Shown: piece by piece, positions 19,186 to 40,095 of the stretch | Numbering within the stretch: position 1 is the first letter of the stretch | Layout of the letters: each line of letters starts with the position of its first letter | The notes under the pieces: generated by a model | Database searches by the model: none | What the model was told of the DNA's origin: nothing | What the model saw: only the letters and a program-made list of their open reading frames with translations | Assembly (NCBI RefSeq): GCF_017352215.1 | Contig: NZ_CP071444.1 | Coordinates: forward strand, 1,054,001 to 1,118,000 | Direction: 5' to 3' | DNA: 64,000 bases | Source: Alkalibacter rhizosphaerae | GTDB taxonomy: Bacteria; Bacillota; Clostridia; Eubacteriales; Alkalibacteraceae | Made by a program: the position numbers and the translations under genes

Positions 19186-21429
19186 TTACATCGATTTTCT
19201 GAGATATTTGGCAGTGATTGTTGAACTTTTTTCCACCATCTCTCTCACGGTTCCCTCAAATACGATCTCGCCACCGCCGCTGCCTCCATCCGGCCCAATA
19301 TCAATGATGTGATCCGCATTTTTAATGACATCTTGATTGTGTTCGATGATGATCACCGTATTTCCCCTGTCAACAAATCTCTCAAACAGCTTCATGATCC
19401 CCTTGATATCAGAGGCGTGGAGCCCCGTGGTTGGTTCGTCCAGAATGAAAATGCTTCCCTGATCATCCAGATGTTTCGCAAGCTTCAAACGCTGCCGTTC
19501 TCCTCCCGATAAGGTGGACGTCGGTTGTCCCAGGGAAAGATATCCCAAGCCCACTTCCACCATCCGCCTAATTTGTTTTGCGATTCTATTCTGGCCTTTA
19601 AAGAAAACGAAAGCTTCTTCTGCCGACATGGCCAATATTTCCATGATGTTTTTTCCGTGATATTGAAAAGAAAGGGATTCTTTGTTAAAGCGATTTCCTT
19701 CACATTCTTCACAAACCGTAGTAACAGGGTCCATGAATACGAGCTCCGTAACAATGACGCCTCTTCCTTTGCATGCAGGACATGCGCCCTTGCTGTTAAA
19801 GGAAAATATCGATGCGCTCTGACCCGTTTCCTTTGAAATCACTTTTCTTATGGCATCGAAAAACCCCAGGAAGGTGGCTGGCGTTGAACGGCCTGTAGCT
19901 GTTATGGGAGACTGATCCACCAGCACCACATCGTCAACATGCTCTTTTGCAAATACATCCCGGATCAACGTGCTTTTTCCGGAACCGGCCACGCCGGTCA
20001 CTACGGTCAGGACGTGGAGTGGAATATCCACCGATACATCTTTCAGGTTGTGACAAGTTGCATTGCGAACCGGCAGATACTTGTCGGGCACTCTTGGTTG
20101 CTCCTTGATCGGAAGGATCTCTTTCATCGCATTGCCGGTCCTGGTCCCGGATAAAAGAAGATCTTCGTAACTTCCTTCAAACAAAATTTCACCACCATGT
20201 TTCCCTGCAAGGGGCCCGACATCGATGATATGATCTGCAATACTTATGATATCTTTATCGTGTTCGACGACAAGGACGCTGTTTCCCTTGTCTCTAAGTT
20301 TTTGAAGCAAGTTGCACATGCGGTAAACGTCCCTTGGATGCATGCCCGTACTGGGTTCATCAAAAATGTATGTCATCCCAGTCAATGCACTTCCCATGTA
20401 TCGCACCAGTTTCAGACGTTGGGCTTCTCCACCAGACAGGGTGGACGATTCCCGGTTCATGCTTAGATAAGGAAGGCCAATTTCGATCATTCTGCCTAAA
20501 GACGCCACCAAATCTTCGACAATGGTCGTCGCTCTTTTATCTTCGATTTTTGACAATGCTTCTCTTAAACTTGTAAACTCCATTTCACTCATTTCATGGA
20601 TGTTTTTCTCGTTGATCCGACAGGAAAGGGTGTGATCGTTCAGTCTCTTGCCATGGCAGCTGGGGCATTTTTTTTGTATGATCAGGCTCAACAGCCTTTT
20701 TGCAGATGCTTCCCTGATCGCGGACGTATCCCGCATCAACACGGTTCTTCTGAGTTGTTGAACGATTCCCTCCACTTTTTTGTGGACCTGGTCTCCATTG
20801 GGCACTTTTGCCCCATAATATAGAATGTTCTTTTCTTCTTCCGAGTAATCCTTGAATTTCTTGTCAAGATCAAATACCTTCGATTCGGTGTATATCTTCC
20901 AATACCAGTTTCCCACACCGTAGGCTGGGAGCTTTACCATTCCCTCGTTCCAGGATTTTTCCGGATCCACCAACCCCTCCGTATCGATGTCTGTTATATT
21001 CCCCAAACCCGAACACTCGGGACACATCCCGTTGGGATCATTGAAGGAAAAGTAGGATGCAGTCCCAACGTAGGGCGCCCCGATCCGGGAGTACAACACT
21101 CGAAGCGCAGAATACAAATCGCTGATCGTACCAACCGTTGAACGGGCGTTGCCCCCTAGTCTGGACTGGTCCACGATGACCGATGCGGAAAGATTGTCGA
21201 TATAATCCACTTTTGGTTTTTCATATTTTGGCATTCGTCCCCGGACCCATGCCGTATAAGTTTCATTCATCTGCCTCTGGCTTTCTGTTGCAATGGTATC
21301 AAATACGATACTTGATTTGCCGGACCCGGATACACCCGTGAAAACAACGATTTTGTTTTTGGGTATGGACAGAGAAATGTTCTTCAAATTGTTTTGGTGC
21401 AAACCCCTAATTTCGATTCGATCGTTCAT
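19186..21429 (-). CDS. UvrA-like ABC ATPase (short paralogue)
   Basis: About 747 residues with two UvrA-type ABC modules: Walker A GVSGSGKSS and GVAGSGKST, signatures TLSGGEAQRLKL and TLSGGERQRLKL, Walker B IFDEPSTGMHP and ILDEPTTGLH. Zinc-binding Cys clusters are CPECSGLG, CPSCHGKR, CPACKGRG and CEECEGNRF. It is about 190 residues shorter than housekeeping UvrA; the gap falls after RLGGNARSTVGTISDLYSALRVLYSRIGAP, where UvrA carries the UvrB-binding domain. It therefore resembles UvrA paralogues linked to DNA-targeting antibiotic resistance (DrrC-like). ATG at 21429 has GGTGGAG upstream. Confidence 0.88.
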   Translation of the reverse strand: MNDRIEIRGLHQNNLKNISLSIPKNKIVVFTGVSGSGKSSIVFDTIATESQRQMNETYTAWVRGRMPKYEKPKVDYIDNLSASVIVDQSRLGGNARSTVGTISDLYSALRVLYSRIGAPYVGTASYFSFNDPNGMCPECSGLGNITDIDTEGLVDPEKSWNEGMVKLPAYGVGNWYWKIYTESKVFDLDKKFKDYSEEEKNILYYGAKVPNGDQVHKKVEGIVQQLRRTVLMRDTSAIREASAKRLLSLIIQKKCPSCHGKRLNDHTLSCRINEKNIHEMSEMEFTSLREALSKIEDKRATTIVEDLVASLGRMIEIGLPYLSMNRESSTLSGGEAQRLKLVRYMGSALTGMTYIFDEPSTGMHPRDVYRMCNLLQKLRDKGNSVLVVEHDKDIISIADHIIDVGPLAGKHGGEILFEGSYEDLLLSGTRTGNAMKEILPIKEQPRVPDKYLPVRNATCHNLKDVSVDIPLHVLTVVTGVAGSGKSTLIRDVFAKEHVDDVVLVDQSPITATGRSTPATFLGFFDAIRKVISKETGQSASIFSFNSKGACPACKGRGVIVTELVFMDPVTTVCEECEGNRFNKESLSFQYHGKNIMEILAMSAEEAFVFFKGQNRIAKQIRRMVEVGLGYLSLGQPTSTLSGGERQRLKLAKHLDDQGSIFILDEPTTGLHASDIKGIMKLFERFVDRGNTVIIIEHNQDVIKNADHIIDIGPDGGSGGGEIVFEGTVREMVEKSSTITAKYLRKSM

Positions 21430-21664
21430 GATCTCCACCGCCTATTTCCAATTTATCTTAAAATCAACAAGCAAAAATACCATTTCAATCCACACTTCGT
21501 TTCAATTATACTACTGCGTTTGTCTTTTTCAAAACTTAACTTATTTTGAAAAATAGTCAGTCATTTAATTTTATGATATGATGTTCTTGAAATCTTGCTT
21601 TCGCCAAATCTACGCGTAAAAACAGGAACGGACCAATCCAATTCAATAACAACGGAGGAATATT

Positions 21665-22453
21665 ATGAAGAATGTTGTGATAACCGGCAGCACCAGAGGT
21701 ATTGGTTTTTCCATGGCAATCGAGTTTTTGCAGGCCGGATGTAACGTGACCTTGTCTGGCAGAGGAGAATCCCTGCCTGAAGCAACAAAAGCAAAACTCT
21801 CTGATTTTGAGGAAAAATATATATATGTTCAATGCAATGTACAGGAAAAAGCCAAGGTACAAAATCTTTGGGATGTTTCCGTAGAAAAATGGCACAAGAT
21901 AGATATCTGGATCAACAATGCGGGGCAAAATACTCCATATGTATATTCGTGGAAAACAGGAGAAAATTACACCGAAAGCATTATCAAAACCAATATTATC
22001 GGAATGATATTTGGCACACAAGTTGCCGCAGAGGGTATGCTGAATCAAGGTTATGGCGAAATATACAGCATGGAAGGCCTTGGCTCAAACAATATGATTC
22101 AGAAAAAGACAATATTGTACGGTACCACCAAACATGCTTTGAGCTATTTTATGAAGGGAGTTGCCAAAGAATTGGAGGGGACCGGTGTTATGGCAGGGCG
22201 TTTGTCCCCTGGTATGATGCTAACGGATTTTATCACGAAAACGCCAGACGGCGAGCAATCGGAGGTTATAACCGAAAAGCGGTTTAAAAAAGTGTTCAAC
22301 ACTTTGGCAGACAAACCAGATACAGTAGCAAAGTTTTTTATACCTAAAATATTGAGCAATAGGAAAAACAACGCTCAGATCATTTGGCTGACAAATAGAA
22401 AGGCAGCATGGCGGTTCATGACTTCAGCTTTTCGCAAAGACAGACTGATTTAA
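21665..22453 (+). CDS. Short-chain dehydrogenase/reductase (SDR)
   Basis: 262 residues. NAD(P)-binding GSTRGIGFSMA at residue 8, NNAGQ at about 98, and catalytic YGTTKHALSY (YxxxK). An Asn/Ser pair upstream (SMEGLGS) supplies part of the tetrad. Strong CGGAGG site. It precedes the LysR gene on the same strand by about 70 bases, so it may belong to the aromatic locus that follows. The substrate is unknown. Confidence 0.88.
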   Translation: MKNVVITGSTRGIGFSMAIEFLQAGCNVTLSGRGESLPEATKAKLSDFEEKYIYVQCNVQEKAKVQNLWDVSVEKWHKIDIWINNAGQNTPYVYSWKTGENYTESIIKTNIIGMIFGTQVAAEGMLNQGYGEIYSMEGLGSNNMIQKKTILYGTTKHALSYFMKGVAKELEGTGVMAGRLSPGMMLTDFITKTPDGEQSEVITEKRFKKVFNTLADKPDTVAKFFIPKILSNRKNNAQIIWLTNRKAAWRFMTSAFRKDRLI

Positions 22454-22522
22454 GTTTAGTAGAGAAATGTAAAACGTATAGTTGTGATTATAACTACATG
22501 CAAAAGTACAAGGAGTGTATTT

Positions 22523-23428
22523 ATGAATACGATGCAGGTTCGCTGTTTTCTGACAGCAGCGCGATATCTTAATTTCACGGATAGCGCTGCCGAGCTGTTC
22601 ATATCGCAACCGGCTTTAAGTCACAATATTTCGTCTTTGGAAGATGAGTTGGGAATAAAACTTTTTATCCGAGATAAAAAAAATAAAAATACCCGTCTTA
22701 CGGCTGCGGGACAAATCATGTATGAAGGCTTGAAGGATATCCAGGGTCAGCTGGATTTGTTGGTAAAATACGCCAAGCAGACCCAGGAAGGCAAATCCGG
22801 ATTTCTTCGGATCGGGCTTATCAGCAGCAACAGCATTGACGAACGTACCTTGTCCATTCTCGACAACTTTCAAGAGAAATATCCGGATGTGGATTTGACG
22901 CTGCGCAGGGGAAGCAACAGCGAACTGGTCCAATGGTTGCATAATCAGACACTGGATATTGCTTTCGCCTTGAAAATCGATGTGGAAAACAAGAATTGGT
23001 TGATGTTGAAGAGACTCTACAGCGTAGAATCGGTACTCATCCTTTCTGCAAAACATCCCCTGGCAAAGAAAAAAGATTTGTCGTTGATCGATTTTAAAGA
23101 GGAAACCTTTGTGACCCTTTCACCAAATGAATCCTACGCCATACATTCATTGTTGAAGCAGGAATGTGAAAAGGCCGGATTCACACCGAAAGTTATTGAA
23201 GCTCCCGATTTGAGTTCCCAAGCACTTTACCTGGAATCGGGCAAAGGGATCGCCATCAGCGGTATCAACAATACGGCAGTCCTCAACAATCTTACCACGA
23301 CCTTACGACTGCGGGAACTAAAACCAATGGAACTGGTCATTGCTTCAAATCGATCCAATAACAATCCTTGCATCGAGTTGTTTCATTCTTATTATGAAAA
23401 CAGGGAACAAACGGATGAATCTTTGTGA
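22523..23428 (+). CDS. LysR-family transcriptional regulator
   Basis: About 301 residues. N-terminal winged helix-turn-helix (MQVRCFLTAARYLNFTDSAA then QPALSHNISSLEDELGIKLF) followed by a periplasmic-binding-protein-like ligand domain from about residue 90. ATG at 22523 follows AAGGAG; the upstream in-frame start at 22484 has no site. It lies directly upstream of the PhlG-like hydrolase and probably controls that cluster in response to an aromatic substrate. Confidence 0.9.
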   Translation: MNTMQVRCFLTAARYLNFTDSAAELFISQPALSHNISSLEDELGIKLFIRDKKNKNTRLTAAGQIMYEGLKDIQGQLDLLVKYAKQTQEGKSGFLRIGLISSNSIDERTLSILDNFQEKYPDVDLTLRRGSNSELVQWLHNQTLDIAFALKIDVENKNWLMLKRLYSVESVLILSAKHPLAKKKDLSLIDFKEETFVTLSPNESYAIHSLLKQECEKAGFTPKVIEAPDLSSQALYLESGKGIAISGINNTAVLNNLTTTLRLRELKPMELVIASNRSNNNPCIELFHSYYENREQTDESL

Positions 23429-23575
23429 TCCGCCCGTAATCTCGTTGCTTATGAGCACATAGAAAACATTGATTTCACGGACGGACAAAAACAAGTTAAT
23501 ATGTTTATAAATAGTCTCTTTCATGTTAGCCAACAAGTAAGAGACTACATTTTTATAAAGAAGGAGGCAAATCTG

Positions 23576-24358
23576 GTGAACTCTCAAGAAAAAGTGAAGG
23601 TGACGGAACAGGACAAACAGAAGTCTTATTACAAATACTACCTGGAATCGGTAGTAGAACCTCCATCGGAGAATATTCAGAAAGTATTGGCGGGCCCAAT
23701 GGACCCAGCGAAAGCGCTGCCGATCCAGGAAAGAAATCGTCTTTTTGATGAAGGCTATTTCGAAGAAGAGGTCGGTTATTGCGTTATGCCTGATGGAACC
23801 GGTTACATCTCCAACCTGGTCAAAATGCCGGGAGTGACCGGAGAAATGTTTGACTGGTGGTTTGCCTGGCATGGCCAGGACAATTTGCGCTACACGATCT
23901 GGGACAATGAGGATCATTACCGGGCAGAATCCATGCAAAAAGCAAAAGGCCGGGATCCCATGCTTTCCTACAAGGAGCGATACTGGGATACGACCCACCT
24001 TGTTTACGAGGATGTGGGCATGGGACCTCAGAATATCGTGATCAACTTTAAAAACCCGGGAGACATGGGTTTTGATACCTCAAAAATCGGAACCAGCGCC
24101 TGCTCCACCATTGTCTGTGCCAATGGCAAAGCCATCATGTGTCATTTTGTCCGGGACATTGAAGGTGGCATAGAGCTGCGTACTCGATTCTGGATGGGAT
24201 ATACCTGCAAGAACAAAAAAATGTACAAAGTACTACCTGACGGAGTGCGAATGCCGGAAGAACCACTAAGAGCCCTTAATTTGCACAACATCAAAGAATT
24301 CAACAACCTGGCAGTTCTTTTGCCAAAGATCTTCCCCGAAGAACGGGATAATTTCTAG
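23576..24358 (+). CDS. PhlG/phloretin-hydrolase-like C-C bond hydrolase
   Basis: 260 residues, GTG start after GAAGGAGG. It resembles the DAPG-hydrolase (PhlG) domain family, zinc enzymes that split the C-C bond between an acyl group and a phloroglucinol ring; the same family includes phloretin hydrolase of flavonoid-degrading gut anaerobes. Candidate metal ligands visible are the His in WWFAWHGQ, acidic residues in HLVYEDVGMG, and the C-terminal HNIKE (HxxxE). The following ferredoxin and flavoprotein genes start 15 bases and then 16 bases after the preceding stops, so the three form an operon. It is upstream of a questin-oxidase-like gene. I infer action on an acylphloroglucinol-type or related polyketide substrate. 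Confidence 0.72.
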   Translation: MNSQEKVKVTEQDKQKSYYKYYLESVVEPPSENIQKVLAGPMDPAKALPIQERNRLFDEGYFEEEVGYCVMPDGTGYISNLVKMPGVTGEMFDWWFAWHGQDNLRYTIWDNEDHYRAESMQKAKGRDPMLSYKERYWDTTHLVYEDVGMGPQNIVINFKNPGDMGFDTSKIGTSACSTIVCANGKAIMCHFVRDIEGGIELRTRFWMGYTCKNKKMYKVLPDGVRMPEEPLRALNLHNIKEFNNLAVLLPKIFPEERDNF

Positions 24359-24372
24359 AAAGAGGTGTGGTC

Positions 24373-24618
24373 ATGATTGATACGAAACATCGCATCATTT
24401 TTGATGCCGAAAAATGTGTCGGCTGCAAGCTTTGCTATAAAGCATGCTTTGTGGATGTAATACGCTGGGATGAAGAAAAAAAACAGCCTGTTTTCAAATA
24501 TGTGGAAGACTGCGAACACTGCTTCTGGTGCGAAGCCATTTGCAATAAAGGATGCATCCAAGTTCTACCGGATTACGAAAGCGAAAAATTGTTGCAGACA
24601 TTTGATCGATATCTTTAG
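24373..24618 (+). CDS. 2x[4Fe-4S] ferredoxin-type protein
   Basis: About 81 residues with two cysteine clusters, CVGCKLCYKAC and CEHCFWCEAICNKGC. The arrangement is that of the AprB-like or fumarate-reductase-associated ferredoxins, with a long spacer between clusters. ATG at 24373 has AGAGGTG upstream. It sits between the hydrolase and a flavoprotein and is likely the electron donor or acceptor for the latter. Confidence 0.88.
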   Translation: MIDTKHRIIFDAEKCVGCKLCYKACFVDVIRWDEEKKQPVFKYVEDCEHCFWCEAICNKGCIQVLPDYESEKLLQTFDRYL

Positions 24619-24633
24619 AAAGGGGGGTTGAAA

Positions 24634-26310
24634 ATGGATATAAAGATTGAACGAAAGAATATAAATACGGACATTTTGATCATAGGCGGTGGAATCGCCG
24701 GTCTAACGGCAGCTATCGCACTGAAGGAAACAAGCCCGGAAATGGATGTTCAAATTGTTGAAAAGCAGACGTCCGGCTATTCGGGAAAAGCCAATAAAGG
24801 TGGTGGTGTTCTCCAGTATTTTGACTTGGAAAAGATCAAGCCGGAAGATTTCACCGCATATCATGTCCAGGCTATCGGCTGCTACTTGGGCGATCAGGAT
24901 CTCATGAAAAAATACGTCTCCATGAACAATGAAATGCTGGATAAACTGGTTGAGTGGGGTGCCGTATTGCCGAAACGTGAAGATGGCAGTTATGCCGTGA
25001 TCCCAACCGGTCCGATGACGGCCATGATCGGCGTCGACTTGAATATCACGGTGAGACTCAGGAGAACAGCGGAGAAAATGGGTGTCCAGTTTTTGGACAA
25101 AGTGACCGTCTCCGATTTATTGACCAGTGAAAACAGAATCGCAGGAGCTTTAGGCTACAGCATCTTGGACGGAACAGTGTATGCCTTCCATGCAAAATCT
25201 GTCGTTCTGGCAACCGGAAGTCAAAACTACAGGATCGGACCTATGTGGAGCAGCGGCAGAGGAGACGGCATTGCTGCCGCATATCGTGCCGGTGCAGAAA
25301 TGCGAAATCCTGAGTTTGGAAACTTTGCCCAATTGGTCAAGGTCCGCAGCCATAATGAAGTAGTGTTCGGTGAAAATCACATGTACAATCAACTGGGCGA
25401 ACATGTGACAAAAAATTTCCGATCCGGCCCGGAACCGGATATCAGCAGTTCTGCAATTGCTGAGTGGTTTCAACAAATGTCGGAAGCAAATGGACCCATT
25501 GTCTTGAAACTCGACAATGACGGGGGCGGTTTGCATAAGGTTTGGGATCGTCCATACGGGCAGGATTTTTGGTCATTGAATAGAAAATCGGCAGAAAACG
25601 TGGATGTGGATAATGAAGTTTGCCCGATGTTGATTGGAGAACAGTCTCCCGTGAAAGTCGGTCATGACATGCAAACTACCATACCTGGACTGTACGCCAT
25701 TGGAGACGTCAGCTACTGTGGTTCCGCAGCTCCCGGTGCGGTTCCTGCACCTCCAGGACGAAACCGGGGATCCGGTATTTTAAATGCTGTATTTGCCGGT
25801 ATCCTTTGTGCGGAAGGCGCTTCTGAAAATGCAATGAACATAACGGTTCCCGCCCTTGATGAAGAACAGGTGGATAACTGCATAGCCAAGACCTTCGCAC
25901 CTTTGGCACGGGAATCGGGTTCGGATCCAAAAGAGATCATTCGTTTGATCCAACAGGCTGTTGGTCCCATGGAACGCTCCGTTTACATGAGTGATCATCG
26001 CATCGAAACCGCTTTGAAATATGTGATGAAAGCAAAAGAACTGTGCGAAACGTTGAAAGCCAATGACTTCCACGAGCTTCTTTCCTGTCATGAAGCAGCC
26101 GCCATGGTACTCTCGGCAGAGATGCAGTTCCGGGCAGCGGATATGCGGAAAGAATCAAGAGGTTGGTTCATGCGTGAAGATTACCCGGATATGGATAATG
26201 AAAACTGGTTAAAATGGATCATCGTAAAGAAACAGGGTGATTCCATGGAATTCAGTACGGAAGACGTTCCATACGAGAAATGGTCCGTACAACCCAGCAA
26301 GGTGCAATAA
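24634..26310 (+). CDS. FAD-dependent fumarate-reductase/AprA-like flavoprotein
   Basis: About 558 residues. FAD-binding DILIIGGGIAGLTAAIALKE at the N-terminus, then KANKGGGVLQYF, and the second FAD element LYAIGDVSYCGSAAPGAVPA with GSGILNAVFAG; the C-terminal helical domain is of the succinate dehydrogenase/AprA type. Paired with the adjoining ferredoxin it resembles AprBA-like two-subunit oxidoreductases. ATG at 24634 after GGGGGG; the TTG at 24628 is less likely. Probable role: reduction or oxidation of an aromatic or enoate intermediate released by the hydrolase. Confidence 0.82.
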   Translation: MDIKIERKNINTDILIIGGGIAGLTAAIALKETSPEMDVQIVEKQTSGYSGKANKGGGVLQYFDLEKIKPEDFTAYHVQAIGCYLGDQDLMKKYVSMNNEMLDKLVEWGAVLPKREDGSYAVIPTGPMTAMIGVDLNITVRLRRTAEKMGVQFLDKVTVSDLLTSENRIAGALGYSILDGTVYAFHAKSVVLATGSQNYRIGPMWSSGRGDGIAAAYRAGAEMRNPEFGNFAQLVKVRSHNEVVFGENHMYNQLGEHVTKNFRSGPEPDISSSAIAEWFQQMSEANGPIVLKLDNDGGGLHKVWDRPYGQDFWSLNRKSAENVDVDNEVCPMLIGEQSPVKVGHDMQTTIPGLYAIGDVSYCGSAAPGAVPAPPGRNRGSGILNAVFAGILCAEGASENAMNITVPALDEEQVDNCIAKTFAPLARESGSDPKEIIRLIQQAVGPMERSVYMSDHRIETALKYVMKAKELCETLKANDFHELLSCHEAAAMVLSAEMQFRAADMRKESRGWFMREDYPDMDNENWLKWIIVKKQGDSMEFSTEDVPYEKWSVQPSKVQ

Positions 26311-26347
26311 CAGCTTCCAGACATGACGAAAAAATTGCCGCATTAAC

Positions 26348-26420
26348 AGGGCTTCCTGATTTGCATACCTCCAGCAACATGCCTGGTGGAAATGCAATGG
26401 CTGGAAGCCCTTTGTTTTGG
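26348..26420 (+). terminator. Structured terminator after the flavoprotein gene
   Basis: AGGGCTTCC (26348-26356) pairs with GGAAGCCCT (26403-26411), with further pairing inside (TTGCAT with ATGCAA, CCTCCAG with CTGGTGG), followed by TTTGTTTT. The branched stem and T-rich tail fit a rho-independent terminator. Confidence 0.65.
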
Positions 26421-26529
26421 TTAGTCAGGATGGCATTACGCGTACTTCTTACAAGTAGAAAATTTTTTCAACATTAGAAATATGGGTACAAATCCTATTG
26501 AGAAAAAATATGATGTGGAGGAAATTTTT

Positions 26530-27531
26530 ATGCAGATCCATGAATTAGTAAATGAATATGCAAGGCCTTACTCACCCTATATGGGAAACTTCGTCAACCA
26601 TTTGCCGATGGGACAGCTGGCACTATATCAAATGAATAGGAAGTTAGAGGACATTAAATCGTATTCTGATTATTATGTAAACCATTTTAATATTGATTTG
26701 GCAAAAACGAACTATCCTAAAGTACATTCCATTGAAGAGTGCCTTGGAAAAAGAGATTTATATGAGTCTTGCCTGGATGCAGTGAGGGAATCTATTGAAG
26801 CAGAAGGGATGGACAAGGTGATCAGAAGGATCTTGAATCATTATTCCTACGGACTGTCTTCCGGTCTTTTTCATACATCTATTCGACTGTTTTATGCTGT
26901 AGAAGGTTTTAAAGTTGACCATGGTCTTAAAGAAGAGGTTGCCAGAGCGCTGGCATATTATGTGACAGGATATAAGGAAGCAAAGAAATTCAGAAATAAA
27001 ATCGAAGGTCCTGAATTCAAGGACCAGATAAAGAACTTGATCCAGGATCTCTATATCAATAACTTGACGGAATCCAAATCATCCATGGGGCAAAAGATGA
27101 ATGCCTTGTACCATGACTCGAAATATTTGGACAAGGGTTTTGTCATCGCAGGAGATGAGGAAGAAAAGATCCGAACATTGTTAGGACTTACATTACCCAT
27201 GCATGATCATTATCAAAATATCATTATCCTTCATTGTACAACAGGACTTCACGCACTTATTGGACTTAAGGATTATTTTGATGATTTCTCTGAGATCCTT
27301 GACATCATGTCAACTTGTATCATCACCCACTTGTTGACAATAGATGGGCTGGAGGTCCAAGATATTAGCCCTGAATCACCAGAGAAAAAATGGGAAGACG
27401 TTATAGCACTCGGGTGTAATTCAAAAAACGTCCACACAATAAAATACACATATACCTGCAGCAAGCTGGACAAGCTGTATGCCTTGCCCACCTTAAAAAA
27501 ATCCGCTATACGAAAAATAACTAGTGAATAA
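26530..27531 (+). CDS. Questin-oxidase-like (DUF4243) protein
   Basis: About 333 residues. The pattern NHLPMGQLALYQMNRKLEDI near the start, YGLSSGLFHTSIRLFYAVEG in the middle and NIIILHCTTGLHALIGL near the end match the His-rich helical repeats of the questin oxidase family. In fungi members perform Baeyer-Villiger-type ring opening of anthraquinones and bacterial homologues are uncharacterised. ATG at 26530 follows GTGGAGG. It comes after a terminator, so it may have its own promoter. The oxygen-dependent role known in fungi is hard to reconcile with an anaerobe, so a different reaction is likely. Confidence 0.65.
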   Translation: MQIHELVNEYARPYSPYMGNFVNHLPMGQLALYQMNRKLEDIKSYSDYYVNHFNIDLAKTNYPKVHSIEECLGKRDLYESCLDAVRESIEAEGMDKVIRRILNHYSYGLSSGLFHTSIRLFYAVEGFKVDHGLKEEVARALAYYVTGYKEAKKFRNKIEGPEFKDQIKNLIQDLYINNLTESKSSMGQKMNALYHDSKYLDKGFVIAGDEEEKIRTLLGLTLPMHDHYQNIIILHCTTGLHALIGLKDYFDDFSEILDIMSTCIITHLLTIDGLEVQDISPESPEKKWEDVIALGCNSKNVHTIKYTYTCSKLDKLYALPTLKKSAIRKITSE

Positions 27532-27556
27532 AATGGAATCAAAACAACAGAATGCT

Positions 27557-28765
27557 TTAGTTGAAACTGCCATCCCAAACCGGCATGTTTTCGATGTATT
27601 GCTCCTCTACTGCCGGAACATAATAGGCACCATAGCTGTTGAGCCCGTTTTCACGCTTCATATCCGGAAGTTCTACGTAGAATTTGTAATAAGGCATGAA
27701 CAGTTTATCGGTCCTGCTCAACCGATAAACCAACTCCATCTTTTTCACATGTTCTTTGCCGGCAAACTCCTGGGGCACCGATGTGACGTAGTTTCCAGCC
27801 TCAAGCAGGGCAAGTGCCTCTTCCCCGTCAACGATTGGGTAATCGCCTACAACTTCACTCAAGTCTGTTTCATACTTCCTTGCAAGAAACAATGCCCCAT
27901 CGTCGTTGCAGTAAAACTCCAACGTATTGAAATGATAATTTAAAATGGCCTGCACCCCATCGCTGCTTTTTTCATAAAAAGCGATCCTGTATGATTGCTC
28001 CCCATAGATGTTGAAGTCTCCCCCGGAAACATTGATCATGGGATCTTTCATCCCGATGAACGCTGCAAATTCGTCTTTTAAATACTCTGCCACCTTGTAG
28101 GTTTCGTCATATGTTGCGTAGTAGGTAAAATTGTACTCCTCCGGCAGCTCCACAGGGACCTTGAAATCCACTCTTGCCGTATTGCTTGTATCCACTTCCA
28201 CTATATATTTTTCATCTTCCATGAAAAACCTTGTGGCATCAAAGTATCCATCTGGCACCGTGCCACCCAGTTTATCCGTGATATCCTTTTGGGTTTCCTT
28301 GTCAGGGACATCATTTGTGATCGGTATGTTTTTCGCATCCATGCCAAGATCTTCCGCTGTTTCCACTAAGAGCTTTTCCATCCGTTTATAGTCTGGATCT
28401 TCCACATGCTGCATTTCATCATATGCAAATTTGTTTTTTATGACAGGCAAATGGGTGATGCTCATGTCTTCATTCCAAGGATTGGCATTTGTCAGATCTG
28501 AAATATCATAGGCCATATATCCCTCGAAGCCCATCCCGCCAGCAAATTCCGTATCTATGGTGAGCATGGGCAGGTTTGGATTTGGATCCGTTGTCGTGTC
28601 GTCTCTGTTCAAAAGAGAAAGGACCGATATTACAAGGACAAAACAAGCTGCAACAGCGAGCCCTTTCCTATACAACGGTTTTCTTGATTTCGCCATATTC
28701 CCAACATCTGAAATGATATCATCATCTATATTTGTGATCTTTTCGTATAGATCTTTCCCTCTCAT
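27557..28765 (-). CDS. Membrane-anchored anti-sigma-like protein
   Basis: 402 residues: a short cytoplasmic N-terminus (about 1-32), one transmembrane helix (GLAVAACFVLVISVLSLL) and a large extracellular domain of about 350 residues that I do not recognise. Its ATG overlaps the stop of the ECF sigma gene by four bases (ATGA), so the pair is translationally coupled. By family custom it would hold the sigma factor inactive until a surface signal appears. No zinc-binding HxxxCxxC is visible in the short N-terminus. Confidence 0.65.
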   Translation of the reverse strand: MRGKDLYEKITNIDDDIISDVGNMAKSRKPLYRKGLAVAACFVLVISVLSLLNRDDTTTDPNPNLPMLTIDTEFAGGMGFEGYMAYDISDLTNANPWNEDMSITHLPVIKNKFAYDEMQHVEDPDYKRMEKLLVETAEDLGMDAKNIPITNDVPDKETQKDITDKLGGTVPDGYFDATRFFMEDEKYIVEVDTSNTARVDFKVPVELPEEYNFTYYATYDETYKVAEYLKDEFAAFIGMKDPMINVSGGDFNIYGEQSYRIAFYEKSSDGVQAILNYHFNTLEFYCNDDGALFLARKYETDLSEVVGDYPIVDGEEALALLEAGNYVTSVPQEFAGKEHVKKMELVYRLSRTDKLFMPYYKFYVELPDMKRENGLNSYGAYYVPAVEEQYIENMPVWDGSFN

Positions 28766-29322
28766 AGTTCCAAACCCTCACTTTGAAAATGTTTTTTCAA
28801 TTTGTTTCGTGTCCTCATGAGCATGGACTTGGTTTTGCTTTCGCTTATGCCGAATTGGTTGGCCACTGCCTTGATCGGTTCAGAATACCAATACCTTGTC
28901 ACAAACACGTCTCTTTCTTCTTTTCCCAAGGCTTTTAGAAACCTGCTGATACTTTCCGCAAGCTTCGTCTCTTTTATTCTGCATTCCTCATCCCTTGGCG
29001 AGGGTATGCACTCTTCGATTTCTTTTGTCAGCTCCACTACATTTGCATAGCGCTTTTTTGCATGGTTTTTATTGTAAAGATTTATGGACAAATTCCGTGT
29101 GATTTTTGCCAAATAGGAGAACAGGTATTTCTTAGGAGACCTGGGCGGTATGCTGTTCCATGCGGACATATATGTATCGTTCTCGCATTCTTCCGCATCC
29201 GAAATGTTTCGAACTATGTTGAATGATATTCGTTGAAGCCGACCTCCATACTTGACGGACGACTCTGCAATTGCTTTTTCGTCTCTTTGCAGATACAAAT
29301 CCACGATCATTTCATCCTCCAT
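28762..29322 (-). CDS. ECF-type RNA polymerase sigma factor
   Basis: 186 residues with region 2 (YGGRLQRISFNIVRNISDAE, then ECENDTYMSAWNSIPP) and region 4 (LGKEERDVFVTRYWYSEPIK, AVANQFGISESKTKSMLMRT). A strong GGAGG site precedes the ATG. Coupled with the membrane protein downstream, the likely anti-sigma. The regulon is unknown; nfnAB, divergent to it, has a sigma-A-like promoter instead. Confidence 0.9.
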   Translation of the reverse strand: MEDEMIVDLYLQRDEKAIAESSVKYGGRLQRISFNIVRNISDAEECENDTYMSAWNSIPPRSPKKYLFSYLAKITRNLSINLYNKNHAKKRYANVVELTKEIEECIPSPRDEECRIKETKLAESISRFLKALGKEERDVFVTRYWYSEPIKAVANQFGISESKTKSMLMRTRNKLKKHFQSEGLEL

Positions 29323-29399
29323 GGAAAAACCTCCTTCACCCTATATAACAAAATCTCTTCCTATTTGGTTGCATCTGAATATTTTTACATCATCTAAAG

Positions 29400-29417
29400 A
29401 CTATCCTAACATAGGGG
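29400..29417. repeat. Solo IS3-end-like sequence
   Basis: ACTATCCTAACATAGGGG matches the right terminus of the two IS3-family copies (ACTATCCTAACACAGGGG) with one difference. No transposase or second end lies nearby. It is probably the scar of a lost element. Confidence 0.5.
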
Positions 29418-29444
29418 CCTTGAAAATTAAACCACGGTAAACAA

Positions 29445-29473
29445 TTGATTGTTTGTATGTTTCATTATATAAT
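29445..29473 (+). promoter_or_regulatory. Sigma-A promoter of nfnAB
   Basis: TTGATT (29445-29450), a 17-base spacer, then a perfect TATAAT (29468-29473), 67 bases upstream of the nfnA start. Confidence 0.75.
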
Positions 29474-29539
29474 TTACCCTATAAGTTACAATGTTTTGGT
29501 GCATGAATTCTGTCAAACTAATTAAGCAAGGAGAAAGCC

Positions 29540-30370
29540 ATGTATAAAATTTTACGAAAGCAAACATTAAATGAACAAGTGAAGCTTATGGAGATTGAGG
29601 CTCCCCTAATTGCCAAGAAGGCAAAAGCAGGACAGTTCATCATACTGCGCGTCCATGAAAATGGAGAACGTATACCACTGACGATCTCCGACTATGATGC
29701 GGCCAAAGGCACCATCACCATCATCTTCCAGGAAGTCGGCAAGACGACGATGCTCCTTGGCACCCTTGAAGAAGGAGACTCCCTCCAGGATTTTGTCGGT
29801 CCACTTGGCAAAGCCTCCCATTTCCCTGAAGATATTAAGAAAGCGGCAATTATTGGAGGCGGTCTCGGTACGGCAATTGCTTATCCCCAAGCGAAAGAAC
29901 TTCACCGGTTAGGCGTTGAAGTGACAAGCATCGCAGGGTTTCGAAATAAAGATTTGGTCTTACTTGAAAAAGAGCTCCATGAAGTCTCCGACAAAGTCAT
30001 TATCACCACGGATGATGGATCCAATGGAAACAAGGGATTCGTCACAGACGCACTTAAAAATGAAATTGAATCGGGGGAAAATTTTGATCTTGTCATTGCC
30101 ATAGGTCCCTTGATCATGATGAAGTTTGTATCACAGCTTACGAAGCAATACGGAATTAAAACCATAGTCAGCATGAATTCCATCATGATCGACGGAACAG
30201 GAATGTGTGGTGGATGCCGAGTGACCGTAGCAGGTGAGACGAAATTTGCTTGTGTGGACGGTCCTGATTTTGACGGACATGAAGTGGACTTTGACCAGGC
30301 AATGCGAAGACAGGGTATGTATAAAGAACCGGAAAGCGAAGCCTGCAATCTTTTCAAAGGAGTAGAATAA
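29540..30370 (+). CDS. nfnA: NfnA-type ferredoxin-NADP+ oxidoreductase subunit
   Basis: 276 residues with an FAD-binding barrel (RVHENGERIPLTISDYD), an NAD(P)-binding domain (AAIIGGGLGTAIAYPQA) and a C-terminal [2Fe-2S] site, MCGGCRVTV then KFACVDGPDFDGH. This is the small subunit of NADH-dependent reduced ferredoxin:NADP+ oxidoreductase, which couples NADPH, NADH and ferredoxin by flavin-based electron bifurcation. AAGGAG precedes the ATG. Its stop overlaps the next gene start by one base (TAATG). PyrK- or SudA-like identity is the alternative. Confidence 0.87.
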   Translation: MYKILRKQTLNEQVKLMEIEAPLIAKKAKAGQFIILRVHENGERIPLTISDYDAAKGTITIIFQEVGKTTMLLGTLEEGDSLQDFVGPLGKASHFPEDIKKAAIIGGGLGTAIAYPQAKELHRLGVEVTSIAGFRNKDLVLLEKELHEVSDKVIITTDDGSNGNKGFVTDALKNEIESGENFDLVIAIGPLIMMKFVSQLTKQYGIKTIVSMNSIMIDGTGMCGGCRVTVAGETKFACVDGPDFDGHEVDFDQAMRRQGMYKEPESEACNLFKGVE

Positions 30371-31761
30371 TGCCAAATATGCAAAAAGAAAAAACAAAAA
30401 TGCCTGAACAGGAACCAAAAGTCCGTGCGAGAAATTTTGAAGAAGTTGCACTTGGATACACGGAAGAGATGGCGATCAATGAGGCCAATCGCTGTCTTCA
30501 ATGCAAACACCAGCCTTGTGTAAAAGGTTGCCCGGTCATGATACAGATCCCGGATTTCATCGCTCTCATCGCACAAGGAAAACACATCGAAGCTTACGAA
30601 AAGATTCGGGAAACGAACGGTCTTCCGGCAATTTGCGGAAGAGTGTGTCCGCAAGAAGAACAATGCGAGATGCTTTGCGTTAGAGGCATCAAGGATGAAC
30701 CTGTAGCCATCGGCAGATTGGAACGTTACTGTGCAGACTATGCCATTGCAGCAGGTGTAGAGCCGCTCACATGCAAATGCACCTTGGGTAAAAAAGCAGC
30801 CATCATCGGCTCCGGCCCAGCCGGTCTCACCTGTGCAGCAGATCTTGCCAAAGAAGGCGTGGATGTGACCATATTTGAAGCATTCCACACACCTGGCGGT
30901 GTATTGAAATATGGAATTCCTGAATTCCGGCTCCCAAAATCGTTGGTTCAAAAAGAAATCGACTCTCTGGTAGATATGGGAGTAAAAATAGAAACCAACA
31001 TGGTGATGGGCAAGATCCTTGATATCGACGATTTAAAGGAGATGGGGTTTGAGACCATATTCATCGGCACCGGTGCAGGACTTCCAAGCTTCATGAACAT
31101 TCCAGGCGAAAATTACAATGGTGTCTATTCATCCAACGAGTTTTTGACGCGGATCAATCTTATGAAAGGTTACAAATATCCGGAGTACGATACACCTGTC
31201 ATCCGCCACAAAAAGGTGGCAGTAGTCGGTGGAGGAAACGTAGCCATGGATGCAGCAAGATGCGCCATGCGCTTGGGTGCAGAGCAGGTTTATATCATCT
31301 ATCGAAGAAGCGAAACGGAAATGCCTGCAAGAAATGAAGAAATCGAACATGCAAAAGAAGAAGGCATCGAATTCAATCTCTTGATGAACCCAGTGGAAAT
31401 CTTGGGTTCGGAACAAGGCGATGTGACCGGTATCCGAGTCATCCGAATGGAGCTCGGGGAACCCGACGCTTCCGGTCGACGAAGACCGGTACCAATAAAA
31501 GGTTCAGAATTCGATATCGAATTGGATGCTGTGGTGGTGGCCATCGGCCAAAGCCCGAACCCGCTAATGAGGGAAGCTACTCCGGATCTAAAGACCCACA
31601 GCTGGGGTGGCATAATCGTTGACGAAGAGACTGGGGCGACTTCCATTGAAGGGGTATACGCCGGCGGCGATTCTGTTTCAGGCGCGGCCACCGTCATACT
31701 GGCAATGGGGGCTGGAAAAGCGGCTGCGAAAGCCATGCTTGAGTATATGACCAAAGAATGA
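30370..31761 (+). CDS. nfnB: NfnB-type subunit (GltD-like NADPH oxidoreductase)
   Basis: 463 residues. N-terminal Fe-S region with CLQCKHQPCVKGCP and CGRVCPQEEQCEMLCVRG, then FAD-binding IIGSGPAGLTCAADL, NADP-binding VVGGGNVAMDAARCA, and the second FAD motif GVYAGGDSVSGAATVILAMG. The length and pairing with an NfnA partner favour NfnB over the small subunit of glutamate synthase. It provides or balances NADPH and reduced ferredoxin, possibly for the reductive steps encoded upstream. Confidence 0.87.
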   Translation: MPNMQKEKTKMPEQEPKVRARNFEEVALGYTEEMAINEANRCLQCKHQPCVKGCPVMIQIPDFIALIAQGKHIEAYEKIRETNGLPAICGRVCPQEEQCEMLCVRGIKDEPVAIGRLERYCADYAIAAGVEPLTCKCTLGKKAAIIGSGPAGLTCAADLAKEGVDVTIFEAFHTPGGVLKYGIPEFRLPKSLVQKEIDSLVDMGVKIETNMVMGKILDIDDLKEMGFETIFIGTGAGLPSFMNIPGENYNGVYSSNEFLTRINLMKGYKYPEYDTPVIRHKKVAVVGGGNVAMDAARCAMRLGAEQVYIIYRRSETEMPARNEEIEHAKEEGIEFNLLMNPVEILGSEQGDVTGIRVIRMELGEPDASGRRRPVPIKGSEFDIELDAVVVAIGQSPNPLMREATPDLKTHSWGGIIVDEETGATSIEGVYAGGDSVSGAATVILAMGAGKAAAKAMLEYMTKE

Positions 31762-31768
31762 TCCATTG

Positions 31769-31809
31769 AAAAACTCCCGCTCAACAAAAGGTTGAAGCGG
31801 GAGTTTTTA
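31769..31809 (+). terminator. Terminator of nfnAB
   Basis: AAAAACTCCCGCTCAAC pairs with GTTGAAGCGGGAGTTTTT around an AAAA loop, with one bulge; a T run ends it. The stem resembles the hairpin at the end of the TnpB elements in this window. Confidence 0.85.
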
Positions 31810-36235: not shown

Positions 36236-37315
36236 CTAGCATGCTTTTTCACTGTTTTTTTCTTTTGATGGATTCAGCCAAACGGCTTGTTCCATGGTGC
36301 AGTTTTGAACCGGTCCGGTCCATCGTTCAGGGTTCTTTGCCTTTGCAGTTTCCAGTATTTCTTTTCTTCTTTGAAGGATCTCATCGGACGATCCATTGTG
36401 TCTTTGGTTGGGAGTCAAAAATTTCAAGCTGCTGTGGTGGTGGTCATTATTATAATAATCAACGAAGGCATCGACCCATCTGCGGGCAGTTTCAATATCT
36501 GAAAATCCATTATGGGGAAAAGATGGCATGTATTTGACCGTTCGGAACATTGACTCAATATAAGCATTGTCATTGCTCACTCTTGGCCTGCTGTTGGATC
36601 GCACGATCCCTAGATTATACAGCGTTGTCAACAAGGAAGCACCTTTCATCGGACTTCCGTTATCAGAATGTAACACCAAAGGCTCGTTCTTCATCAATAC
36701 ATTTTCAGAGTACGCAGCCTTCTTCACAAGAACACTGGCGTTTTCAGAACTCTCGTGATCCCAGATCTCCCAGCCAACCACTTTGCGGCTGAATAAATCA
36801 ATGATCATGTACAGGTAATAGTATATTCCTTTCACGGGACCGGGAAGCCAGGTGATATCCCACATCCAGACCTGATTGGGGCCTGTTGCACAATGTGTTG
36901 TAATATTCTTGCTTATGGGTGCTTTTGCATAGCCCCGATGATTGACTTGACCAAAATATCTCAAGACCCGATAAAAACTTGAAACCGAAGCGATATATAT
37001 TCCTTCTTTATCAATGAGCTTATGAAAGACTTGATTTGGTGAAAGGCTTCGATGTTCCTTTTGGTTCATCACCTCCAGGATCCTCTTCTCCTCCTCCAAA
37101 TGCAGCTTGTTTGCAGGTATGGGTCTTAGCGCATCCGGACGACCGTCTTTTGTATCGTTACCTTGAACTTTCCAGCGCTGGTAGGTCCTCTCGCTGATAC
37201 CGACGACTTCGCAAGCCTTGAACTGTCTGGCTCCAGAAAGGACTGCTTCGTCGATGGCCACAACCACTTTGATGCGATTTGATTGGCTGGTCAATCTTCC
37301 TCGTCCGAACTCCAA
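36236..37315 (-). CDS. IS3-family transposase OrfB, copy 2
   Basis: 359 residues, same protein as the copy at 8998-10077, with DDE residues in MWDITWLPG, LHSDNGSPM and NAYIESMF. Probably expressed as an OrfAB fusion by -1 slippage at the A run at 37328-37336. Confidence 0.92.
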   Translation of the reverse strand: MEFGRGRLTSQSNRIKVVVAIDEAVLSGARQFKACEVVGISERTYQRWKVQGNDTKDGRPDALRPIPANKLHLEEEKRILEVMNQKEHRSLSPNQVFHKLIDKEGIYIASVSSFYRVLRYFGQVNHRGYAKAPISKNITTHCATGPNQVWMWDITWLPGPVKGIYYYLYMIIDLFSRKVVGWEIWDHESSENASVLVKKAAYSENVLMKNEPLVLHSDNGSPMKGASLLTTLYNLGIVRSNSRPRVSNDNAYIESMFRTVKYMPSFPHNGFSDIETARRWVDAFVDYYNNDHHHSSLKFLTPNQRHNGSSDEILQRRKEILETAKAKNPERWTGPVQNCTMEQAVWLNPSKEKNSEKAC

Positions 37316-37779
37316 ATCGCTTGCATCTTTTTTTTTAATACCAAGAGTGCGGCAGCTTCGGCAAGAGCTTTCTCCTTGCGCTCCAGTTCCTTTTTTGTAA
37401 GTTTAAGCTCTGCTTGACTGTCCTTGAGTTCTTTTTTGACCTTGGATTCTTCAGCTGTTTCACCGGTGATGAATGCTTGCTTCCAGACTTCGATTTCCTC
37501 CGCATATATGCCTTTGCGTCGGCAATATTCTGAGAGCTCATGGTTGTTGAGTGGACTGGTCTCAATAATGATTTGCAACTGCATTTCTTTAGAATATTTT
37601 TGTTTGGAGCCTGCATGATCCTGATAGACCGTCCCTTTGGATTTTGCCTTTTTACGCCATTTATACAGGGTTTGTTCATGAACATGATACTCATCAACCA
37701 GTTCCTTAATGGACCTGTTTTCGGGTGGTAACATCAACTTGATTAATTTGTCTTTAAATTCTTTACTGTAGGTAGCCAT
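37291..37779 (-). CDS. IS3-family OrfA, copy 2
   Basis: 162 residues, same protein as the copy at 10053-10541: HTH region SIKELVDEYHVHEQTLYKWR and a charged coiled coil. Confidence 0.9.
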   Translation of the reverse strand: MATYSKEFKDKLIKLMLPPENRSIKELVDEYHVHEQTLYKWRKKAKSKGTVYQDHAGSKQKYSKEMQLQIIIETSPLNNHELSEYCRRKGIYAEEIEVWKQAFITGETAEESKVKKELKDSQAELKLTKKELERKEKALAEAAALLVLKKKMQAIWSSDEED

Positions 37780-39926: not shown

Positions 39927-40095
39927 TACACAACACCTCTCAATACTTTGTGGCTAACAGCTATTATGAGCGTATACAGGTATTGGAATAATTCACTATT
40001 GATCTTACTAAATTTATCATTCTGATGTAAGGCAAGGAACTCAACTATAAGATTTTCTTGAATGAAAGAAAATCTTCTTTTTCATTTACGTCCAA

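Follow-up and report, generated by a model that had tools for sequence, protein, structure and literature searches.

What might a hydrolase of the PhlG/phloretin hydrolase type be doing in the company of a ferredoxin and a flavoprotein? The question is raised by a locus of Alkalibacter rhizosphaerae (genome of 2.45 Mb, a single contig) lying within the stretch of 64,000 nucleotides analysed here, which is referred to below as the window. An earlier note on this stretch had described an operon of such a hydrolase, a two-cluster ferredoxin and an AprA-type flavoprotein behind a LysR gene and an SDR, and the genes are indeed as it described them (Table 1). The trio occupies a tight operon (23576-26310) with intergenic gaps of 14 and 15 bp, and the GTG codon of the hydrolase at 23576 is preceded by the ribosome binding site AAGGAGG. 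Elsewhere in the window, a gene that precedes the SDR on the minus strand (19186-21438) appears to encode a 750 aa UvrA-like ABC protein, shorter than classical UvrA, and two overlapping ORFs at 36236-37779 resemble an IS3-type transposase pair.

Table 1. Features of the locus, in window coordinates
Feature	Position	Strand	Remarks
SDR	21665-22453		PF00106
LysR-type regulator, putatively of the module	22523..23428	+	ATG start; PF00126/PF03466
Predicted LysR operator TTATGAGCACATAG	23449..23462	+	2 mismatches to palindrome TTATGAGCTCATAA
PhlG/phloretin-hydrolase-type C-C hydrolase	23576..24358	+	260 aa; GTG start; PF18089
Small ferredoxin	24373..24618	+	81 aa; Fer4 families
AprA/FrdA-type FAD flavoprotein	24634..26310	+	558 aa; FAD_binding_2 + Succ_DH_flav_C
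Questin-oxidase (QO)-like protein	26482-27531		Weak PF14027 match
ECF sigma gene and partner gene	27557-29322	opposite	
nfnAB	29540-31761		

The family of the hydrolase is clear. The protein matches the PF18089 (DAPG_hydrolase) profile with 259.7 bits (cut-off 22.7), and it is 35% identical to the Mycobacterium abscessus phloretin hydrolase 5xe5 and 32% to PhlG 3hwp. Its predicted structure (pLDDT 96.9) is best matched by phloretin hydrolase 5xey (TM 0.83) and then by PhlG 3hwp (TM 0.80), so the overlay on PhlG that had been proposed as a check gives a fold match. Across 86 family rows from bacteria and archaea, residues H99, H114, E145, H190, H237 and E241 do not vary, with the exception of one degenerate copy, and they are also kept in both solved structures (phloretin hydrolase and PhlG); the loss of zinc ligands, which the earlier note had named as refuting its proposal, is thus not the case. 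The published zinc ligands of PhlG are His129, Glu160, His270 and Glu274, which probably correspond to H114 (in WDNEDH), E145, H237 and E241 of the window protein. By the same numbering, H99 of WWFAWH, the histidine named in the earlier note, is probably not a zinc ligand; both histidines are conserved. An identity as the DAPG hydrolase PhlG proper (NF047887) was rejected, the score of 106.7 bits being below the equivalog cut-off of 600. The degenerate copy is a trio hydrolase (L090:2118-2828) that has lost most of the metal-site residues (by alignment, H99R, E145T, H237K and H114Y); it adjoins a ferredoxin-flavoprotein pair, and a second hydrolase, this one intact, follows 2.2 kb further downstream.

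The two partners of the hydrolase are less easily named. The eight cysteines of the ferredoxin (C15, C18, C21, C25, C47, C50, C53 and C57) are invariant in the 13 trio ferredoxins aligned and would be expected to bind two [4Fe-4S] clusters. The flavoprotein has as its closest solved structure the PAPS reductase alpha subunit 8a8o and carries an invariant GAVPAPPGRNRGSGILNAVF motif. It shares the fold of AprA and FrdA, and AprAB also has a ferredoxin-type partner, yet it is neither enzyme by the curated cut-offs, both of which are far from being reached. With the AprA model (TIGR02061) it scores 87.3 bits against an equivalog cut-off of 641.75, and the invariant motif differs. With the FrdA/SDH flavoprotein model (TIGR01812) it scores 136 bits against 567, and the covalent-FAD histidine is missing, the SHT of FrdA being aligned with SGK; nor are all of the known catalytic residues of fumarate reductase recognisable. 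An identity with Fcr, the OYE-type reductase of flavonoid degraders, was also rejected, as the window protein is of the FAD_binding_2 type and has no Oxidored_FMN domain (PF00724). A ferredoxin-flavoprotein pair of a distant subfamily (L132:4691-7999) has no hydrolase and adjoins genes that look phosphate acyltransferase-like and indolepyruvate:ferredoxin oxidoreductase-like. Since this pair lacks a hydrolase, and the hydrolase of L090 has lost most of its metal ligands, the ferredoxin-flavoprotein pair may also function independently.

The association of the three genes is by no means peculiar to Alkalibacter. When GTDB genomes were scanned with the hydrolase, 80 loci were obtained and the trio was present in 40 of them (39 with the flavoprotein, plus L018, whose contig ends after the ferredoxin). 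The order is hydrolase-ferredoxin-flavoprotein in most loci and ferredoxin-flavoprotein-hydrolase in five, with gaps of at most 40 bp or small overlaps. At 12 loci (13 ORFs) a single protein of 812-826 aa combines flavoprotein and hydrolase, and in trees these fusions group with the ferredoxin-flavoprotein-hydrolase order, as would be expected if adjacent genes had merged. Flavoprotein and hydrolase distances are correlated (r=0.75 for 39 pairs, uncorrected for kinship). As a reciprocal check on the choice of loci by their hydrolase, a flavoprotein profile was searched in 399 genomes of the phylum: all four of the close matches, of which the window genome is one, have a hydrolase adjacent or fused, although this survey is not fully independent because the profile was built from trio flavoproteins. 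Of two distant matches, that in G131 has a ferredoxin and a flavoprotein together with a protein that matches PF18089 only weakly (19.6 bits, short of the cut-off), and that in G451 is without a hydrolase; wider surveys of flavoproteins in the classes of these two genomes gave no additional trio. The trio is a real conserved module, and the finding which the earlier note had named as refuting, namely that it never co-occurs elsewhere, did not materialise. Two further arrangements were seen. One Oscillospiraceae MAG has two tandem units of ferredoxin plus fused flavoprotein-hydrolase (L044:2074-7780). In another locus the trio is directly followed by an Fcr-type protein reduced to its C-terminal (NAD(P)H/FAD) half (L024:9992-10855), 43-48% identical to Fcr-type OYEs, which may supply electrons to the ferredoxin.

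A metabolic setting for the module is suggested by its neighbours in other genomes. The anaerobic phloroglucinol pathway of C. scatologenes consists of PGR, DPGC, TfD and TAL (PMC10470551). Near trios we find a PGR-like SDR, a 3-hydroxyacyl-CoA dehydrogenase family protein (TfD/HOHDH), a Cyclase-family DPGC, a BKACE-family TAL, CtfAB and a cupin, a set that constitutes the C. scatologenes phloroglucinol cluster. Such genes flank 16 of 39 trio loci versus 3 of 41 solo loci (Fisher p=5e-4, an optimistic value because the loci are related and the flanks vary in length). The window genome has the C. scatologenes-type genes as well (PGR, DPGC, TfD/HOHDH and TAL), in a cluster with a sigma54-type activator (G000:C1, about 1916.5-1923 kb) that is about 840 kb away from the trio. 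Its DPGC and TAL are 79% and 74% identical to their Fusibacter homologs; for the SDR in the place of PGR, identity to the Fusibacter SDR is only 39%. Among the six genomes of the family, the hydrolase and DPGC/TAL are both present in G000 (the window genome), G001 (a genome of the same genus) and G004 and both absent from G002 and G003, with G005 being ambiguous. In a Freyarchaeota archaeon MAG, a PF18089-type hydrolase (L086:6938-7834) adjoins phloroglucinol-pathway genes, and archaeal polyphenol catabolism is thus possible there.

The trio also has a probable regulator in common. LysR orthologs (about 330-425 bits) adjoin many trio loci, in divergent or co-directional orientation, and in 13 loci of the window clade, that of the window included, the first gene of the trio is preceded, at 87-140 bp, by the palindrome TTATGAGCTCATAA; near forms occur in the LysR-linked loci of ferredoxin-flavoprotein-hydrolase order. 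Shuffled upstream regions come within two mismatches in 0.18% of draws. We infer that the LysR protein acts on the trio through TTATGAGCTCATAA as its predicted operator. The operator 13-mer has only two matches in the 2.45 Mb genome, too few for statistics, and the other one (TTATGAGCNNATA, window 39964-39976) has no obvious link. On one contig, represented by the neighbouring pieces L020 and L056, the element also precedes an operon of an ABC transporter (of the sugar type, its families assigned from L019 homologs), an Fcr-type OYE and a second hydrolase.

The last case illustrates a broader pattern. In flavonoid degraders the known order of events is that Fcr reduces the C-ring of a flavanone or flavanonol and Phy, the phloretin hydrolase, then frees phloroglucinol (PMC8398226, PMC11170127). 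Fcr-type OYEs adjoin hydrolases of the family in L039, L049, L050 and L056, joined in Flavonifractor by an FMN_red protein. In the family relative G004, the hydrolase is followed by FMN_red, a VprA-like FAD flavoprotein (333 bits to vinyl phenol reductase, cut-off 600) and NuoG/NuoF-like genes (L118:7474-14250); L051 has genes similar to this set. A reductase adjoining a PF18089 hydrolase is therefore a recurring pattern, and it is this pattern, together with the Fcr-then-Phy order, that puts the ferredoxin and flavoprotein of the trio in the position of the reductase. The window genome has no close Fcr, its best OYE match being 36% identical to the Fcr-type protein of L056. The trio and the Fcr-hydrolase pair are not simple replacements of each other: both occur on the L020/L056 contig, which argues for different substrates.

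Taken together, we favour, at a probability of roughly 0.55, the reading that the trio serves at the periphery of anaerobic polyphenol degradation, as a module of two steps in which reduction is followed by hydrolytic cleavage. The small ferredoxin would relay low-potential electrons to the FAD flavoprotein, which would use them for the two-electron reduction of a substrate of the acylphloroglucinol type, most probably a chalcone- or flavanone-level flavonoid. It would thereby take the part played by Fcr, the OYE-type reductase, next to other phloretin hydrolases. The product would be a dihydrochalcone-like C-acyl phloroglucinol, whose ring-acyl C-C bond the adjacent or fused zinc hydrolase would cut in a retro-Claisen-type reaction to give phloroglucinol and an arylpropionate-type acid. 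Fermentation of the phloroglucinol would then fall to the cluster found elsewhere in the genome, with its SDR/PGR-like reductase, cyclase-family cyclohydrolase, 3-hydroxyacid dehydrogenase, triacetate lyase, CoA transferase and thiolase, and the LysR protein would turn the trio on through the TTATGAGCTCATAA operator. The general idea of the earlier note, a PhlG-type hydrolase working with a ferredoxin and flavoprotein in the catabolism of phloroglucinol-type polyphenols, is supported by the kept metal site and by a trio that is widespread and even fused. Its more specific suggestion, that the system splits and then reduces the ring, does not fare as well, the later ring reduction being a task for the phloroglucinol cluster and not visibly one for the flavoprotein.

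The two steps could also run in reverse, with the hydrolase cutting an unsaturated substrate (e.g. a chalcone) first to release phloroglucinol and a hydroxycinnamate, the side chain of which the flavoprotein would then reduce as an electron sink. The net reaction is the same, flavoproteins of the FAD_binding_2 superfamily are known to reduce acrylate-type acids, and the flavoprotein beside the L118 hydrolase resembles vinyl phenol reductase at the sub-threshold score given above; we nonetheless consider this order unlikely, in view of the Fcr-then-Phy sequence of flavonoid degraders (PMC8398226) and because the closest solved relatives of the flavoprotein are APS/PAPS reductases and not hydroxycinnamate reductases. 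Slightly less likely still, in our opinion, is that the flavoprotein has a different bond or ring as its target, for example by reductively opening the C-ring of a flavan-3-ol or auronol or by partially reducing the phloroglucinol ring, with the hydrolase cleaving the resulting beta-diketone. In favour of this, alphitonin cleavage is so far a hypothesis (PMC11170127), the initial step in catechin degradation lacks an assigned enzyme (PMC12203004), and one trio-bearing MAG (L027, CTSoil_080) comes from a soil fed with condensed tannin (PMC8084988), but the pathway cluster already provides an SDR-type reductase for the phloroglucinol ring.

The least probable reading, to which we give very little credence, is that the whole 10 kb makes up a single aromatic or anthraquinone locus including the questin oxidase and NfnAB. 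Adjacency in the window speaks for it. Against this, a phmmer search of the other trio loci gave neither QO nor an orthologous nfnAB next to the trio; a QO homolog is present in the sister genome G002, which has neither the hydrolase nor the pathway, and is missing in G001 and G004, where hydrolase and pathway are both found; and two opposite-strand genes (an ECF sigma gene and its partner) part the QO-like gene from nfnAB. The QO-like protein itself scores 34 bits with PF14027 (cut-off 27), covering only positions 1-149 of the 340 in the profile. As for the SDR, near other trios it has only weak general-family matches (28-38 bits), and at just 22-24% identity to the pathway SDRs it was rejected as a phloroglucinol reductase. 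On these neighbourhood and phyletic data we reject the SDR, QO and nfnAB as parts of the module, contrary to what had been proposed, and there is no support for anthraquinones as substrates.

In returning to the preferred reading of reduction followed by cleavage, it should be stressed that the central pathway and the classes of enzyme were known before; what is new is the pairing and the fusion. The Phy enzymes (of Eubacterium ramulus, and 5xe5/5xey of M. abscessus) have PF18089, the fold and the metal-site residues in common with the window hydrolase; at 35% identity to 5xe5 the latter differs also in its ferredoxin/flavoprotein partner, which is unreported for Phy in the papers searched. 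PhlG, the 2,4-diacetylphloroglucinol hydrolase, is of the same family and fold, but the window locus has no context of DAPG biosynthesis. Fcr with Phy likewise couples a reductase gene to a hydrolase of PF18089, but Fcr is an NADH-dependent OYE-type enzyme whereas the trio has a ferredoxin and an AprA/FrdA-type flavoprotein, of another domain make-up. The C. scatologenes pathway, whose cluster is in the window genome and whose genes flank the trio in relatives, was published without any description of the trio as a part of it (PMC10470551). Among the open-licence papers searched, we found no description of the trio or of the fusion and none combining phloretin hydrolase, fumarate reductase and ferredoxin. 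It is possible, though we would put this somewhat short of an even chance, that the ferredoxin-driven AprAB-like flavoprotein performs a novel reductive step on polyphenols (C-ring opening or acylphloroglucinol reduction) and passes its product straight on to a retro-Claisen hydrolase domain within one polypeptide or complex, which would amount to a second, non-OYE route to anaerobic flavonoid cleavage.

Several steps in the anaerobic degradation of flavonoids and tannins, as it takes place in guts, digesters and wet soils, are still without an enzyme. A recurring trio that occurs as a fusion in bacteria of the rumen and gut and is linked to the phloroglucinol pathway provides enzymes that can be tested, together with a regulator and a candidate operator, and would improve the annotation of those polyphenol degraders that have no recognisable Fcr.
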